DNA from: Echinarachnius parma
Taxonomy: Eukaryota; Echinodermata; Echinoidea; Clypeasteroida; Echinarachniidae
DNA: 64,000 bases
Reading direction: 5' to 3'
NCBI GenBank assembly: GCA_037951105.1
Contig: JBAMJV010010127.1
Location: 1-64,000, forward strand
In this document: positions 15,103-57,300 of the stretch, piece by piece
Numbering within the stretch: position 1 is the stretch's first letter
Layout: every line of letters starts with the position of its first letter
Notes under the pieces: model-generated
What the model was told of the DNA's origin: nothing
Database searches by the model: none
Seen by the model: only the letters and a program-made list of their open reading frames with translations
Translations under genes and position numbers: made by a program

Positions 15103-18100
15103 CTAGACAACTCCGAGGAGACGCAGGGCGTTTGTGATGGACAGTCCGATGAGACCAAGCAAGCCGATGTAGCCATAGACTCCGTTCATCCTCTTGCTTG
15201 GGTCTGAAAGAACAAGTTGAGCAAAGAAAATGATTGAACCCGTTGCTTACGGGAACCGGGTGGGCCAAGTACAAAGTCTATGGGGTTTTCATAATCATGA
15301 AGGGAACGGTTTAATGTTCAGATTAATCTTTTATTGCCATGTATATATATATAAAATAATTTATTTGATATAAATATAAATATAATATTATAAAAACACA
15401 AAATTTGATTCCAGACTCTCGAATGCACAAGACAATTGAACATTTATACACGGTATACATAGAACATTTAAAATTGAATATCATAATACTAACATCGTGT
15501 AAAATATTGTATTACATTGGCAAGCAGTTAGGTAAAAAAGATAATATCATAATTCATACAAGTATAATTGTGTGCTGGTGGAAAGGAAGATGATATTTTA
15601 CTTTGAATTGAGATAAAGCAATTACTACAGACTTGTGAAAAATGTTCAATCCTCTTTTATTTAAACAAGCTGTTAAAACGAGGTTTCTAATATTAGCAAG
15701 GTAATTTCACAGGTCCGGGTTTTAAGTACTTTATTATTTTTAAGCCCCGATACAACGAGAAATCTGATATAACGAGGTAAATTAAATGGGCCAAAGGTGC
15801 TTGTTATAATGAGGTTTCACTGTATACCTTAATTATGATCAATAACAGAATATTTCATTTATTGTTTTTAACATCAGCTATATAAAGCAAATGTACATAC
15901 TTCCAGTGTAGTAGCCATGGGCGTAGCTGATTCGGCTCACAATCCAAATCAAACCCAACACAGCTGATGCTCGCTGGAAAGGGAATAAAGATAAGAAAAA
16001 TCAATCAACTTTGAGTCTATGATTGACATGATGTGGTTACAACCTAGTTGGCTGAATGTGTATGGGTCTTACAACCTGAATGATTGAATGCCTTCATTAA
16101 AGCAATGAAGGTGTTCTGGGGGTGTATCACACAAATTGTAAGGTAAACTTCAAATTATACTGAGCCATATGAGGCCTTGGAATAAATCACATTTTAAGGG
16201 GAAAATACAAACATTTGAGACTTTTAAAGAAATTTTCCATGAAGAACATGAAATCTCTGTGATAATAGAACATATAGCAACTAATAGATTTCCATCATTT
16301 TGAGTCCATCTTGGAATTTAAGTTCAACTGATAATCTTTGTGAAATCCCCCCCCCCCCCAACTGATAATCTTTGTGAAATCCCCCGGCCCTTTTAGGGTT
16401 TAATAACGAATTAACTCATCAATGAACACGACGGGTCCACTCGTGATGACCACTTATTAGGTCTTCACTGTGTGGTCTTTGTAGACCAGTTAGAACCATC
16501 TCCTGGGATATATGATTGGAAACAAAAGATTTACAGTTCCAATGTAAATGAGCTTGTCTATAAAGACCACCTCCTTGTGAAGACCCCACATATTTAGGCC
16601 TTTATCCATCAGTGGTTTTTATCGACCCGTTATATGCAGGTGTCACTTGTATGACGCACCTCTTGACCCCCGGGAAAGGTGCGTCATTGTACCGATGTGC
16701 GTCACCCTTTTATGAACCATGACGCACCCTCCGTCAGAAAAGAGACTCACCATTAGGAAACATTGACGCATATTTGAGTCAAAATTGTGATGCACTAACT
16801 ATTTCATGCAAATGACCGACCCATGACGCACATCATTTTGCGCACCAGAAAGAAACCTTGCCAAATTACATGACGGTCCTATTGACGAACCTTAAATGTG
16901 ACGCACTCATGGTAAAGTGACCGACTATGACGCACACATGGGTCAGTCTTGTGACTGACCTTTTGCTTCCATGACGGTACTGTGCGCCATCAATAGGGGA
17001 GTACACGACGCATCCATGACGCACCTTTCTGGGGGTCAAGAGGTGCGTCATACAAATGACACCTGCATCAATGTAAGGACTGCAAAGACCACCTGCTAGT
17101 TAAGACCACTTATTCTGTCTTCATTGAGTGGTCTTTATAGACAGGTTTGACTATAGTCTATTATATAGAGTACTTACTGGGAAGCCAAGACCAGCGAGGA
17201 GCAGGAGGACCAGGAACTGAGGATAGTTCTCCAATCTGTGAAGAGATAAATAGAACAAAAGTGTCAGATTAGAAGGATTTTTGTAATACTTTTGAATCAT
17301 ACAATTCACTCTTCAACCATGAACAGAAACACTATAACACTTTAAAAAACAGTTTGTTATGCAGGGCCAACCATACTCATAAAAGCCTACTAGCTTAGTT
17401 GCATGCTAAGTCTATTTTGTCTGACGTGGCTAAGAATTTAAAAAACATTTGCACTTTTAGTTGCTAACTAGGGTTAACATGTCATATAGTAGATAATCTA
17501 AGGCTTACTCAGCTAAACCTAGCTGGGGACTAGAAAACTGTTTATTGCTCACTAAACCGTATCATTTGAAATATACTTAGCACAGAACTAAGCTAGCAGG
17601 GTTTCATGAATATGGGCCCTGGTCTCTACACTATCACGTTATTTTGCTAGTAGCCATGCAGGTCAGAAAGATGAAATATTTTTGGTTGGCTGGAAACGGA
17701 ACAACTACTGGTCCAAAATTATATCTCATTTTCATAAAGTCTCCTCTTAAAAAACCTAAATTTACTTTACTATCAAAACTGCTGTTTATGGATGAGTCTT
17801 GGGTACAAATACTTCCAGATTTGTAAATATGTGACCTTACACCACAAAACGACCAATAAGTCGGGAAAACTGATTTTGCTGATTTTGATATAACATTAGA
17901 ATAGAAGCCATTACCTTTAAAATGGTATATAATTTGTCATCTTTGGACTTAGCAAACCCTTTTAAAATGAATGCCAAAGATATGGAATATTGCTGAAGCA
18001 TTTTTAAAATAAGGGAGAAACGGGCCGCTTAAAAGATCAGTGTCTATTCAAGCACTGTTATGAGATCACATTTATTAAATGAAAAATTGATATTTAAACA

Positions 18101-24188: not shown

Positions 24189-40785
<16,597 letters not shown>

Positions 40786-45373: not shown

Positions 45374-48300
45374 ATGGCTATCAATATCATATCGCGATTG
45401 ACAATTTTAAGTCTAATGCTCGTCATTAGTTATTCATCTAGGTCATACGGCTCATTTTCTTCATCCCGTCCTTGTGTTATCGAAAACCGGATTGGCAAAG
45501 GGAAAGGTTTGCTTGCGTTTTCAACTTCCAAAACATCTGGCTCAGGCTCAGCACCTTCAGTGCAAGTGGCCTACGGGGATGTGACGGTTTCCCCCGCCGC
45601 TTGGCTGCCGTGGCAGGACCTGCCGTTGCCGGGGTCGTTTTCTCCTCCCATCTCAAATGTTGCGTGCGACTACACAGATACAAACCAAACACAGGTGATT
45701 TTTACTTTTAGACTAAATTGGTACATGATACTTGGTATGTTTATCCTCCTGAATACTCCATCAGTGAATCAGTGGTTGTGCATGGTTGTGCAAGAATGAA
45801 TTTGACTAATTTTAATTCAATAATTTTTACAAACATGTCAATACTTATAAACTTTGCTAACATTAATAATAACAACTTTTAACAATCATTGTAAAACACT
45901 TCAACTATCATTATGCCATTTAATGGTTCCTTTAAGTTGTACCCAACATAATCATCAAATCTCTTTGGTGTTTTTGTAATTCTCTTCTAGAGGCTAGATG
46001 TTTAATTTAATTAATTTCTTTTTTCTACTACTTTTACCAGATCTACGTCCAATTGTCCGATGGACAGGTTTACACGGCAAAGCAAGACCAAGTCGCCTAC
46101 CTCAAGTTCTCCACCTGGAAAGGAGTTGGACAGAATCGTCTGCCCACCGACGGGAGTCAGGGCTTGTTACTTGATTCTGTGTTCGTGGGTCCGTATAAAA
46201 ATGACGTCCTCGTCTTCGCTCGCTCAAAAAGCAGCAACAACTCTCAGCTCTATTTTTGCAAAGGTAAACTAAAAAGTCTAGGGCCCCGTTGCAGGAAGAG
46301 ATACAATTAGTTGTAAGTCGGAGAATGTGTTCTAAATGGGGAAATCTGATTGGTTGAAACGTGCAAAGTTTCTGATTTACGATTAATCACAACTTACAGT
46401 CGATTGTATCTCTTTCTGCAATGGGGCCTCGGACTACATCCTGACTTGATCATAGCTTATTAACTAACATTTTTCCTACATTTTAACAGTTTGATTTAGG
46501 ATGTATAAATGGGCAATTCCACACAAAACATGTATCCTATTTTTTAAATGTTCATGTTTTGGATCACACACGTGACCAAGAATGGCCCAGAAAGGGTTTC
46601 ATAGCATGCACAATTAGTCTGACACTGCATGGGACTTTATGTATTGAGAAACAAATATTTAATTGAGAGCAAAATAAGTTTGTCACTTGATCTTTTAATT
46701 TCTATCATTTGCAAATTTGTTTAGGAAACTCCACAGGATTTGGATCGTGGAACCTTCTTGGAGGGTCTAAAGCCGTCCTTGGGACAGATGCAACCATCAT
46801 CATGAATCCCTTCAGTGGGAAATACGAAGCCTTCATGACTTCCCCAGAAGGTATCATCCACCGCACTTGGCAACACAACGAAAACAGCTTTGCTGACTGG
46901 CGATATATGGACTGTGAGTATATCTAGGGAGGGATGTCATATAAATACATACATGTAGAACTAAACAAATATTTGTTATACCTGGCTACTAAACTCTTCC
47001 GGAAAGAACACACTCATCCACAGTGTGGACCACAATGTTAGATTTGAGCGTGCCAAACTTCCTCAGTCACAAAATAGCAGGGGAAATGTATTTTTAAAAC
47101 TGTAAATTGACCAACTTGTCAAATTTGTTAATTTGTTTAGTTCATCCAAGACCCTAGATGACATTGAAACAACTACTGAAATTAGAAGATTACAAACTGT
47201 ATACAACACATATTTATGTGAAAGAGTTTACCAATATGTACATACACTAATACAGATAAACAGAAGCCAATATGCATTTGGTTTGCACAGCCACTTAAAG
47301 TATTCTTTCTCTCCCCCTGCCCCCTCCCCTCCCCCTGCCCCCTCCCCTCCCCTCCCCCCCCCACCCCCATCAACAAAAAAACAAACACACAAACACAGAT
47401 GCACCAAAGCTTGATATCCACACCAGACCGGTGGCCGGTGTGATGGGCTACAGCATGTTCAACGGGAGGCTCCTGGTGGCTGGTCTGGGCCAGGACGGCT
47501 ACGTCCACCGCTGCGAGCAGGCCACGTGTGATTCTCTGGACAACCCCTGGGGGTACTGCACATGGGGGAGCTGGCACCAGACCGGGGGTGCGATGCCCTT
47601 CGTCTCCAAGACGCCCAACAATGTGGCCGTCAGCCGCAACGTGCACTTTGGCACGGAGCTTTTCAGCGTGGATGATGCAACTGGCCAGTGAGTATGAATA
47701 TAGTAATTTTGTAACCCCTTGACTACAAGATTGAAAACCCCACTCCTCCCCCCCCCCCCCCCCCCCAAATAACAGCAAACAAAAACCCAACATAACCTTT
47801 AACCCCACCCCCTCTAGTCTAAAGTTCCAAAATAATAGTAAACAATAGTTCAAATTATAACCCTTTACCCCAACGCCTCCCCCAAAATAATAGCAAACAA
47901 AAGCCCTAATCATAAAACCCATACCCCTCCCCCCCAAAGCAAAAGCAAACAATAGCCTAAATCGTTACCCATCACCTTCTCTCCCCCCCCCCCCTTAAAA
48001 AAATGAATAGCAAACAAAAGCCCTAATCATAACCCATACACCACAAAAAATAACAATCAGCAAACAAACAGTGAAATTAATTACTTCAAGTCAAGGTCCT
48101 CGGTGCAAATTACAACCAATTGTAAGTCAGAAAATTAGCGCTTTTCAACCAATCAGATTTGGGCATTCAGAACACATGATCTGACTTACAATTAATTGCA
48201 ACTTACAATCAATGTTATCTCTTTCTGCAATGGGGCTAAGGTCCCCTGATAGTTGAGAGGACACTTGTGCTATATACACATCTTGTATTTCAAAGGCTAA

Positions 48301-51300: not shown

Positions 51301-54300
51301 CTTTGCATTTTTGCTCATTACTCGGCCATTTAGCGTCCAGTTAACTTGAAATTTTCACACAATACCTAGTTGACATATTAGATAACAACAATATACATGT
51401 ACATTGTATCAACCATACATCACTTTTTGCACATGCATGTTAACAAAGTTACTGTATCCCTTTAAACCCCCTGCCCCTCTCATTTAGATACGTTCAGGGG
51501 GGCTTGAACCCTGGCCGCAACCCTGTGCAGACTGGGAATGTGACCATGGCCTCGTACCTGCCCTATGGGACCTACCAAGCACGCTACCTAGTCAACAAGA
51601 AGTATATCAGTGTTGTGCAGCAAGGCAAGTAAATCCATCTGTTTCCCCCAGTAGAGAAATATAAGGACGGAACATACCAAACACGCTATCTAGTCAACAA
51701 CAAGTATATTAGTGTTGTGCACCAAGGAAAGTAAATCCACCTGTTTTCCTGAGAAGAAAAAGAGAAGAGAGTATTCCTTTCCATACTTGCCTTATGGGAC
51801 CTACCAAGCACACTACCGGGTCAACAAGAAGTATATCTGCATGTTTGTGCAGCAAGGCAAATAAATCCATCTTGATACTTGATGAGGATATGTCTGTAAA
51901 AGCGCCATTCAGTGCTGTCCAAGAGAGGCATTTGCATAGATGTATCTACACCTATATCTATATATCAATTCGCAAAGGAGGTTTGTGTAAACCATGGTTT
52001 AAACGATGGTCTACATCTATGGAGTGCCATTTGTAAACTGATGGAGAAAGAATGTAAACTCCTTACTTGTTAACAATGATGATGCTACACATTTACTAAA
52101 GGCATCAAATAAATGTTTGTCTTCTCAGATGGTGAAATTTGCTGGTTAGCAAGCACTAACAGTCATATCATTAGAAATTATAAATTGTTTTACTTGTCTA
52201 CGAGCAGCACTCCATAGATGTAGACCATGGTTTACACAAATTTCCTTTGTAAATCCGGGCCATAGACTCTGTTTCCCCCAGAGAAAGAGAAGAAAGCATC
52301 CCTTTATAGGAATTAGGATTTATTTCAGGCTTACATTGTCAAATTTCGACCAAACTTAGATTGAACTCTAGTGGTTCTCACATACCTAATAATTGTAATT
52401 GTATTACCAGTAGGGCTGTCGATTTCGGGTATATTTACTACCCGGGACTCGCGATAATTTTTCGGGCGAGTCCCGGGTACCCGAAATTTATCCATTTGTT
52501 GATTTCGCTATAGGCATGTCACGCCGCTGGGAAAACATGTTCATTCAAGTGACAAAAATGCAGCGCATTTATGACAATAAATCATCTTCTAGAATACAGC
52601 AAATTCGTAAATGAATTATAGTATTAGCATTTCTGACATGATTTTAACGGAATTATGGTAACATGCTGTCCAAATTTACCTTGATTACGAAATTTCTGAC
52701 GAAAATAAGACAAATCATCTCGGTGGCCGATCGTATCTTCATCACTAACACACATTGACCACGTCTCTATTTCCGCATGTGCTAAATACGAAATTGGTAC
52801 GTTGTACACTGTAGCACTAGATATGTCATCAAAATTATGCTAAACCATTGAGTGCTAATACTCAAAATAATTGGTAATTAGAAATAAAAAATAAGCGGAA
52901 TTCCGCGTAAAATCGGAGGTCTCACACCCCTGAATAAATACACCACGCTATACTTTGTACACAATCGGTGCTTCCTAATGCCATCATACATGTTACTGGG
53001 CAATTCCACCATAACGGAATTACATTCAGAGACGTTTTTTGCTCATTATTTCATTCCCTGCGCAATATTCTCATGACTTAAGTAAATTTTGATACTTATA
53101 TAAGTTGCACGGGTAACCAGGCTACAACATGATAGGGAAATGGTTTTATATCTTCCATGTGTTGTTGCACACTAGACCAATATGTGTGACCGTAACGGAA
53201 TTACCGGAGAATGGAGTTTTTTTTTTGCTACAAGTTTGCGTTGAGTTTCTCTGAAATATAAGACACTTTGAAACTGATTTTATGTATTTTTTCTATCTCG
53301 ATAATGTCAACTTCATTTTGGAACAAGTACGTGCATAAACAACACAATGATAAGTTCACAAATTCACTTTTTTGAAAAAAGACCACTGTAACGGAATTAC
53401 ACAAATTTGTAACGGAATTACATCTCTGAAAGTTACAAGGAAAACTCAATTATTTTGCACTCAACTTTTCTTACATGCTAATGCAAACATCAAGGCTATC
53501 TAGCACTTGAATATAAACCATAATTTGACATATCTGTAAAGCAATTTTTGAACTTGATATGTGTAAAATAAATGAAAATATGGCCAAAATACAAATAAGA
53601 GTGAAATTTGAAAAAAATATTGCTAAAATCCAGCTTTATTTCGGTTTATTTTCAGCTTCATATTAGTAGGCAAGAAATTAAAAAGGATTGCATCAATTTA
53701 ATGAAAGAAAAATCCTAGGAACTATGTCCACTAATGTGTGTAACGGAATTACACAACTTAAGCAGTGAAATCAAATTTTCCACAAATCGGTACATGAACA
53801 ACAAAGAATTCACATTTTAGCTTCAATACTTTTCAAAAATCAATAATTTGACAATAATAACCATATTTGAAAGAAAAAAAAGCAACATTTTAGAATTTTT
53901 CCTTTACTTCAAGAAAAATGGTTAAATTGTGAAAAAAATGTACTACATTATGTGAAATGCTAAATAACTGCACATAATCAATATCAAGCAACATTTAAAC
54001 AATTACAAATCACAAACAGGTCAAATCATTCAACTTTCAATGCTATAAAGCCTCGTAAACTTCCTGAATATTGGAAATCTGTGTGAATGGAAATGCATCG
54101 TGAATGGGTAATTCCACTGTTACAGAATGACAAATAAGTGATTTTTAGCTCTGTTTTCTTTTATCATATTTAAAATTCCTTTCACTTTCACAGTTTTTAA
54201 AACTTTAATAACTGGCAGGGGTACTAGAGGTACAACAGAACCCAAGATTGTTACAAATCTATAACAATGTAGCGTCCAGAGACCAAAATACAATCATAAC

Positions 54301-57300
54301 GGAAAGGGGTCTTTCATTCAACACTAACTATGTAATGATTTTCTGCAAAAGCTACCACAACAAATTCTTCATTGGTAATACAAACTTATCATTTAAGTTA
54401 CAAACTTGAATTTGGTACATCTTTTTTTTCCAGAAATGATCTATTTTAACCTCTGAAATTACCTTAAGACAAACGAATGTCACTGTAACGGAATTACGCC
54501 TGTGAAATCCTCCCATGAAAATGCAATTTCTTGGTTACATTTTTCTGCTTTTCTGCCTATAGTCATTAGTAAAGAATGTGTATGCATTGTTCATCACAAG
54601 CTCTTACATAAGGACCAGAACAAATCCTGAAGTTATGTGTGTGCGTAACAGAATTACAAGAAAATCGAGATTTGTTATATAAACTCTTGTTATATTCTAA
54701 AATTATTCTTTAAAAATTTCATCCTATATTGATCTTAATTTACTCTCAAATCAATTTGGAATGCGTTTTCATCCATTCCATGAAATACGTGTATAGATGT
54801 ATATCGGATATAAACGTGTATGATCCTCAAACAAAAAGTTGGCATTTTAAATATAAATATGGAATTGCCAAAAATTAAAGACACCTTTAGGAATTCCCAT
54901 TTGAAAATGCAAATACTTTGTACATCATTCTTCTTTGATCTGCATACAGAAGCACACTGAACACTCAATGTATTCTGACTTTATGATAATGAATAAAACG
55001 TGTGTATCTTAGCCTGTATTATGTTTAGTTTTGAATATCTTGAAGCCTATTCTGTATTTATGTTTAATTTTATATGCTTCAGTTTAATACAAATTTACAT
55101 AATTAATAATAAGTTATGAGCCTTTAACTGATCAATGATATTCAAATCTACATACAATTACAAAATTATTAATATTAAATCTCCTTGAAAGTTGAAGGTA
55201 TGATTTATATCTTAAAATACATGAATGTAAATTAATGTGAGAAAATAAATGTAGCACCAGTGTCATACTAATCACTGGATATTAAAAAAAAATTTTTTAT
55301 TGTTTTTGTTTTTCCCTTTCTAAAGTACAAACATGAATCTGCTGCATCTTCATAATTTCAGTCAAGTGGGTTTTGCTGGAAACTAATTTAATGATAGAAC
55401 ATTATCATCTCTATTATGTTCATGGAGAGATTAGAGAAATTATCTATCGTGTATCAATTTAGTTAAATCACCATTGATGCAATATGAAGCATGTGGGTAC
55501 AATGAGTCACATAACGTAACATTGTACAGTACTTGTATAATGACGTATTGTCTACATGGCTACAGTTCATGCTATTTAAAGGGTATTTCTACATTGAGAA
55601 CAAGAAATGTTTTTATTTTCAGCAATATCATTCAATACCTTACAAACCACGTGCGTGTAATTCCGTTACGTAACGGAATTACTAATACCGTTACGCCAAT
55701 TTTGGAAAAAGTAGTGACATTATTTCAGAAAATTATGTTGGAAGTTCTTAGGACTGTGGTGAAGGAAGAGAATTCACAATGACATGACTAAAGAACAAGT
55801 AATAAGATATTGAGAAAAACTTATTACATTTTATCGTAACGGAATTACGATCAAATATGCATAGATTTCAAAAATTTCTCAAAAAAAAAATGCAATGAAG
55901 TTACTGCCCATGCTTTACAATTTGTGATTGTTGCTACATTGTATGGAAAATATGAGAAAAAGAGCAGAAACAATCATTGAATTAAAAGATTCACTTCATT
56001 TTCATGAAATGAAGCTGATTTATGAATAAAAGGTCATAAATTTCTGTTCAATTCAAGCAGAAATATTTTCAAAACCAATAGAGCTATACACAAATGGTTT
56101 TCAGTTTCCTAAAATTCAAGTTTTCCTTTATCGATAACAGTTTGATTTAGGGAAGATTGCTCAACTTTGAGATGTGGTGTTTTTGCCTTCTCTCATACGG
56201 AATTGCCCTACTACGCTTCGATTGGCTTGATAACACTATATTTAATATTATAATCAAATTAATTATAACCCGGCTATATAATGCTTGAATATTGTCGCGC
56301 TGATAATTTGTACGAAGTTGAATTGGAGAACTATATAGCATGGATGATATAAATGATCGGAAGACAATATAAATGCTGATGGTGAATATAAGATGATGGT
56401 GATGATTATGACGACGATGAAGATGATAGTGATAATAAACTTATGATGGTGAAGATTATAATTATTATCATTGAGCCAATGAAATCGATGTGTTCACAAA
56501 TACGTCAAGAGATGGAGAGGCAGCCAGAGAAGCCAACCACCTGACATGACACTGCGATCACTCCCTCACTTACTCTAGTAAAAACGTAAGTAGTGTCATT
56601 TTGAAATGTTGAATTCAACAATGCTTTCGCGATTAAAACTGCACAAGTTTACGTGAGAAACGTTATTATAAGTAATCAGAGTTGAGCTTGAATACTCAAC
56701 AAATATTGCTACAACATTAATTTGATAACCATTTACATTTATTTTATCACTCAACCACTCCCGATACAAGAAATAAATTCCCAAACTCTTTTATTTTTCA
56801 ACCTAAAGAGAATGTTTATAAAATAAGTAAAAACAACATGCACACAACCATCACTCAACAAGCGACCCAGAACATGTCGGGCGATGTTTACCAAATATCG
56901 CCTATCGGCCATGAGGCTTTCTCGGAAGAGCAGTCCACACTCTCATGACCATCTAGCTCGGTCTACACCAATGCATTATACACTTACTTTTGTTCAGGGC
57001 GTACAGTATTATTATGATGATCATTTGATTACATAGATTTATACTAGCAGATTACCTACCTGTCATGCTTACCTCGGATAAACTGAGCGTCATGCAGCCT
57101 TGACGAAAAGTGACATTCCCGATGTCCAGGTTTACATCAATAATTACCAATAGTAATGCTTTTTATGATACCCTTTCATGGTGCACTTACCGATGAAAAT
57201 ACTGATGAAAAATACCGATAAAATTTCTTATGCGAGTTGAAATCGCTATACTTCCCCTCATAATTATTAACAATTGATTGGTAGATTTAATAAAATACAA

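Follow-up and report, generated by a model that had tools for sequence, protein, structure and literature searches.

How can a short motif that recurs along a transposon differ at the same bases, in nearly every copy, from its counterparts in a relative on the same contig? The question arises from a 64,000-nucleotide stretch of the Echinarachnius parma genome (assembly GCA_037951105.1, contig JBAMJV010010127.1, positions 1 to 64,000), which we call the window. A preliminary description held that two elements, A and B, share their ends and the early layout of a motif whose copies had switched from a GG to a TT type, and it proposed co-evolution with a changing DNA-binding protein or homogenization by conversion. 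Our analysis confirms the observation with corrections and makes it somewhat stronger, adding a third switched position and a right-end layout to what was first reported. The explanation offered for the switch is plausible but not provable from two elements.

Two complete transposons with common ends

Element A (37155–39654, +) spans 2500 bp and element B (52998–56208, +) spans 3211 bp; both are TIR transposons without a recognised coding sequence. A opens with GGGCAATTCC at 37155 and closes with its reverse complement at 39645 (−), and B carries the same 10-bp identical ends at 52998 and 56199 (−). Target site duplications flank each element, CAGG/CAGG around A and TACT/TACT around B (52994–52997 and 56209–56212). 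With such ends and flanks, both insertions are complete on either side, and the family ends and 4-bp duplication first described for B stand. For non-autonomous elements, the Repbase rule of superfamily membership, as worded in the portion of the source drawn on here, combines equal duplication length with aligned termini (PMC4455052). Duplications are 4 bp in both elements and, in a comparison of terminal positions 1–11 allowing at most one mismatch, the left ends are identical over 12 positions and the right ends agree at 10/11. By this rule, A and B fit one superfamily. No empty site spanning a junction of A or B occurs elsewhere in the window.

Stop-free stretches of 50 aa or longer that overlap the elements number 29 (16 in A and 13 in B, the longest overlapping B being 115 aa). 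None of the nine searched (5/16 from A and 4/13 from B) reached the Pfam cut-off, and the weak matches among them were DUF3761 and Nab2, at E 0.1. No partner gene was seen among these 9/29 stretches and five other open reading frames of the window. The simplest classification of both elements is as non-autonomous DNA transposons. End-like sequences within B suggested an intact nested element at 54106–54870, a candidate that we rejected; inspected by eye, it has no flanking 4-bp duplication.

Other features of the window include an uninterrupted 1104-aa non-LTR retrotransposon reading frame (27624–30938, +) with endonuclease and reverse transcriptase domains, whose N-terminal part contains GDIHQNPGP, presumably akin to a 2A peptide. 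A 508-aa reading frame (25707–27233, −) combines DUF1759 with an aspartyl protease, an arrangement that we take to be that of Pao/BEL-type retrotransposons. Judged by its retrotransposons and repeats, the window resembles genomic DNA of an animal. Scans of the window for Rfam families (gathering threshold) and tRNAs returned nothing. A short repeat within A (38875–38955) recurs at 46280–46360 and 48143–48197 with 80–85% identity. Between the elements, a lone GGGCAATTCC followed by ACAC lies at 46511–46520 (+); no motif match with up to two mismatches occurs around it, between 43074 and 52644, and it is possibly a solitary end of the A/B superfamily.

Element-specific types of a recurrent motif

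Against an expectation of 0.31, the window holds 16 copies of the core GTAACGGAA, eight in each element. Twenty sites depart from GTAACGGAANNAC by no more than one mismatch: nine in A, ten in B and one elsewhere (at 17693). The NN dinucleotide of these sites (positions 10–11) is GG in 9/9 cases in A and TT in 10/10 cases in B, which upholds the reported switch. The preceding base differs as well, being G at 9/9 A sites and C or T at 13/13 B sites, so the switch affects bases on both sides of the constant core. Nearly all sites lie on the + strand (9/9 in A and 9/10 good sites in B); those towards the left and right ends are therefore direct rather than inverted.

Within A, a first unit (37168–37570, +) holds GG-type motifs at 37168, 37347, 37544 and 37558, and a second, duplicated unit (37769–38158, +), shifted by 601–602 bp, holds them at 37769, 37948 and 38146. 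Two right-hand copies (39119–39295, +) start at 39119 and 39283. The claim that all A copies are identical holds for their GG, and fails for the first copy, at 37168, which reads GTAACAGAAGGAC. A contains several further words: GGGTCATTCCATGTCAAA at 38192–38209 (+), whose reverse complement includes GACATGGAATGAC, a distant TG version of the motif; ATGGAC outside the motif, found five times against 0.58 expected (37328, 37366, 37686, 37967 and 38162, +) and absent from B outside motifs; and, near the right end at 39628–39636 (−), the similar word GTGGACATT, inverted.

The first site in B is motif 1 (ATAACGGAATTAC, 53011–53023), followed on the same + strand by TT-type motifs 2 (53192–53204), 3a (53388–53400) and 3b (53409–53421) and by another at offset 742 (53740–53752). 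Further along the + strand come a degenerate internal copy of the left end (GGGTAATTCC, 54106–54131) with a decayed TG-type motif, a decayed AG-type motif (ATAACGGAAAGGG, 54296–54308) and two TT-type motifs (54485–54497 and, with one mismatch, 54645–54657). A cluster at 55657–55694 comprises a 26-bp perfect palindrome (55657–55682), formed by two head-to-head TT sites, and a degenerate copy at 55682; the last TT-type motif is at 55836–55848 (+). The well-preserved copies thus bear out the claim of a complete switch, and the decayed sites at 54119 (TG, two mismatches) and 54296 (AG, three mismatches) depart from it. Including these two and the weaker TT site at 55682, TT accounts for 11/13 B sites, the three having been chosen by eye from 15 in-element matches with two to three mismatches, of which the other 12 were left out. 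Mixed types within one copy, which the preliminary description took to speak against its reading, were seen only in the form of these two decayed B sites.

Could the motif serve the host? A host transcription-factor site conferring promoter or insulator activity, unrelated to mobility, would agree with the predominance of one strand and with the steps of 150–215 bp between neighbouring sites (6/8 in A and 6/12 in B). The core TAACGG, which we take to resemble a Myb-type site, offers a candidate identity for such a factor. A preference for different flanking bases in A and in B, which share a genome, would not be expected of it, and we consider this origin highly improbable.

Site positions measured from both ends

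The shared early layout was borne out: from the left end, the first four sites start at offsets 13, 192, 389 and 403 in A and 13, 194, 390 and 411 in B. Right-end distances are 371 and 535 bp in A, and in B 372 bp plus a cluster at 526, 538 and 551 bp, so that the counterpart of 535 in A is one member (538) of a three-site cluster. The doubled third site is present in both elements as first reported, with a spacing that differs; its starts are separated by 14 bp in A and by 21 bp in B, and for this reason the doubling may be independent. Degenerate internal copies of the left end, each followed by similarly spaced sites, begin at about +601 in A and at +1108 in B.

We assessed the layout against random placements with a tolerance of ±3 bp. 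With the favourable cluster member (538), 32/200000 and 17/100000 placements were as good; that choice favoured the match, and the test was therefore repeated both ways, with 238/100000 for the first cluster member. When B was limited to sites with at most one mismatch, 2 or 122/100000 were as good, depending on the cluster member. Across either member, with or without decayed B sites, the range is 2–238/100000, for a statistic picked after the match was seen.

Spacer length and spacer sequence

The preliminary description treated homology of A and B outside their ends as critical, and on this point the result is divided. The first 42 bp of the two elements align at 81% (E 3.7e-6), which extends past the TIR; beyond these left 42 bp and the right 10 bp, alignments of the DNA between sites did not establish similarity. 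Four matched spacers under three scoring schemes gave a combined z of 1.91–2.04, and spacer homology is not established because mismatched-pair controls exceeded this, reaching 2.88. The right-end pair scored z 2.53 (p 0.005) with the terminal 12 bp included and 0.9–1.12 when trimmed, and the first spacer of A matched the second unit of B with a local z of 2.49 (p 0.035). Ungapped diagonals displayed no clear zero-shift peak: z at zero was at most 1.82, and a single spacer reached 2.21 at shift −1.

The lengths of the matched spacers, in contrast, differ between A and B by only 1–2 bp (166/168, 184/183, 151/153 and 347/348). In simulations that assumed both the indel rates and spacer homology, such lengths were retained in 0–10/20000 trials. 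Kept lengths together with unalignable sequence are the hardest aspect of this pair to account for and also the most interesting: either spacing is constrained without constraint on sequence, or the layout is convergent. Convergence would be at work if unrelated bodies lay between similar ends, with the layout imposed by the spacing that a protein requires and the motif type fixed as each array formed. The unalignable spacers and their near-equal lengths suit this account. The 42-bp similarity goes beyond the TIR, however, and convergent sharing of a 9-bp core plus AC is unlikely, leaving the account quite improbable in our estimation.

The alternative in which spacing is constrained has a bold form, which we rate as unlikely though worth stating. 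Here, A and B would represent a fixed ruler, with offsets kept to 1–3 bp from both ends as the intervening DNA turned over until it could no longer be aligned. The nucleoprotein geometry, perhaps with sites set one nucleosome-sized step apart, would be conserved, since site positions are kept while the DNA between them is unalignable, and the base specificity would have changed simultaneously at every working site, here in a DNA transposon of an animal.

Selection or conversion in duplicated units

Duplicated units within each element allow motifs to be compared with their surroundings. The two units of A are homologous (alignment z 4.45 and 4.84), with local matches of 54 bp at 85% and 45 bp at 82%. 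Motifs are conserved above their flanks in this element: the motif itself matches at 38/39 positions, against 41/50 (82%) within 10 bp, 26/43 at 11–20 bp, 46/69 at 21–40 bp and 102/175 (about 60%) beyond 40 bp, where an ungapped comparison gives 73/190. The gapped spacer identity of 224/353 carries little alone, because gapped values are inflated and spacer pairs without significant similarity reach 59–76% in the same scheme. So narrow a peak favours selection acting at the site and immediately around it. The duplicated unit of B counts against a uniform rule of motif conservation; its motifs (30/46) are conserved no better than its spacers (221/346). In its second unit, two sites are decayed, one of these being displaced in the alignment, and the fourth site of B has no counterpart there.

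These comparisons bear on the proposal that local duplication or short-tract gene conversion spread the motif within each lineage after the switch, in which case uniformity would stem from one founder site and be unselected. In its favour, both elements contain their own left ends again internally, and the doubled third site of A is a 14-bp tandem; moreover, conservation in the A units reaches about 10 bp past the motif. Long conversion tracts are disfavoured by the narrowness of the identity peak in A, and the matching offsets at both ends suggest that several sites predate the A–B split. We therefore regard such spreading as possible, if on balance unlikely. The homogenization first put forward accordingly survives as short tracts in A, of a few tens of bases, which are possible.

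Relatives and known systems

Pattern scans of IMG/VR returned zero matches for the left end plus motif, for doubled TT motifs and for two motifs 173–203 bp apart. A looser pattern matched at least 120 stretches there, and a scan of GTDB found seven contigs with one match each; both results were taken as chance. No match to phages was obtained by blastn with A and B. Among the matches listed in a literature search for the motif or TIR strings, no title concerned transposons.

VANDAL elements are plant Mutator-like elements with target site duplications of about 9 bp, hAT elements make 8-bp duplications, and Academ is a superfamily with 4-bp duplications. The 4-bp duplications of A and B are unlike those of VANDAL and of hAT. 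In Arabidopsis VANDAL21, according to the parts of the paper used here, the anti-silencing protein VANC21 binds short motifs ‘arrayed in the same orientation’; YAGTATTAC occurs in both subgroups and YAGTATTAT in only one, and arrays evolve through tandem repeats, with the repeat units diverging jointly (PMC5735166). To that extent, VANDAL21 is like A and B in having a short motif of one orientation in non-coding parts, with a type that differs between relatives (PMC5735166). It differs in that its types overlap within a subgroup, whereas those of A and B do not at well-kept sites, and A and B have sparse sites, three changed positions and a 4-bp duplication.

A second parallel, again from a partial view of the source, is soybean CACTA, in which TgmR/Tgm1 and Tgmt/Tgmw4m/Tgm-Express1 form two subfamilies, each with its own type of subterminal repeat motif, Tgm1 differing from the three others at six positions (PMC4219821). 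As would hold for A and B, two subfamilies are told apart by motif type; CACTA/EnSpm elements have CACTA ends and 3-bp duplications, however, and A and B have GGGCAATTCC ends and 4-bp duplications (PMC4219821). Both comparable cases of a motif switch in the sources so covered come from plants. The hAT element Herves resembles A and B in having a short subterminal motif at both ends, described in the portion consulted as sufficient for transposase binding (PMC3143072). Sola2 shares the 4-bp duplication, but the duplications named in the part of the source used here (AWWT, ATAT, AAAT and ATTT) are AT-rich, unlike CAGG of A (PMC3627910).

Discussion

We lean, somewhat beyond even chances, towards A and B being trans-mobilised transposons of two subfamilies, with sites that track diverged DNA-binding proteins. 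Subfamily membership is assumed here, as one element is known per type. The two would belong to a single superfamily, given their 4-bp duplications and 10-bp identical ends, and would be moved in trans. Their spaced 13–14 bp motif would most likely be a binding site for a protein of autonomous relatives, which could be the transposase, an accessory factor or an anti-silencing factor. The specificity of this protein would have changed at three bases, one before the motif and two at positions 10–11. Sites of each subfamily would follow their own protein, such that functional copies within an element share one type, and the geometry of the complex would keep the site spacing.

Confinement of all 16 cores to the two elements speaks for this interpretation, as do GG against TT and the accompanying G against Y in the preceding base, the layout shared from both ends, the motif conservation in the A units and the predominance of one orientation, a trait of the VANC21 motifs too. 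Against it stand bodies whose homology is not demonstrable, the two B sites of neither type, decayed as they are, the duplicated unit of B, and the conservation around A motifs, whose reach is what short conversion tracts could give. From the motif pattern we infer binding by a protein, its origin in a transposable element and its change as what brought about the switch. The co-evolution originally suggested, with a changing DNA-binding protein, fits a concerted switch with similar layout. The idea is plausible and not new in kind: judging from the portions of the two papers used here, related transposons with switched motifs have precedents in VANDAL21 and soybean CACTA.

Should the family as a whole show this pattern, A and B would exemplify natural pairs that record a change in DNA-binding specificity, with two site types and similar architecture in the same genome. 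The residues of a transposon protein that read three defined base positions would then become mappable, and such pairs would provide a test of how a parasite rewrites an entire array of sites along with the protein that reads them.
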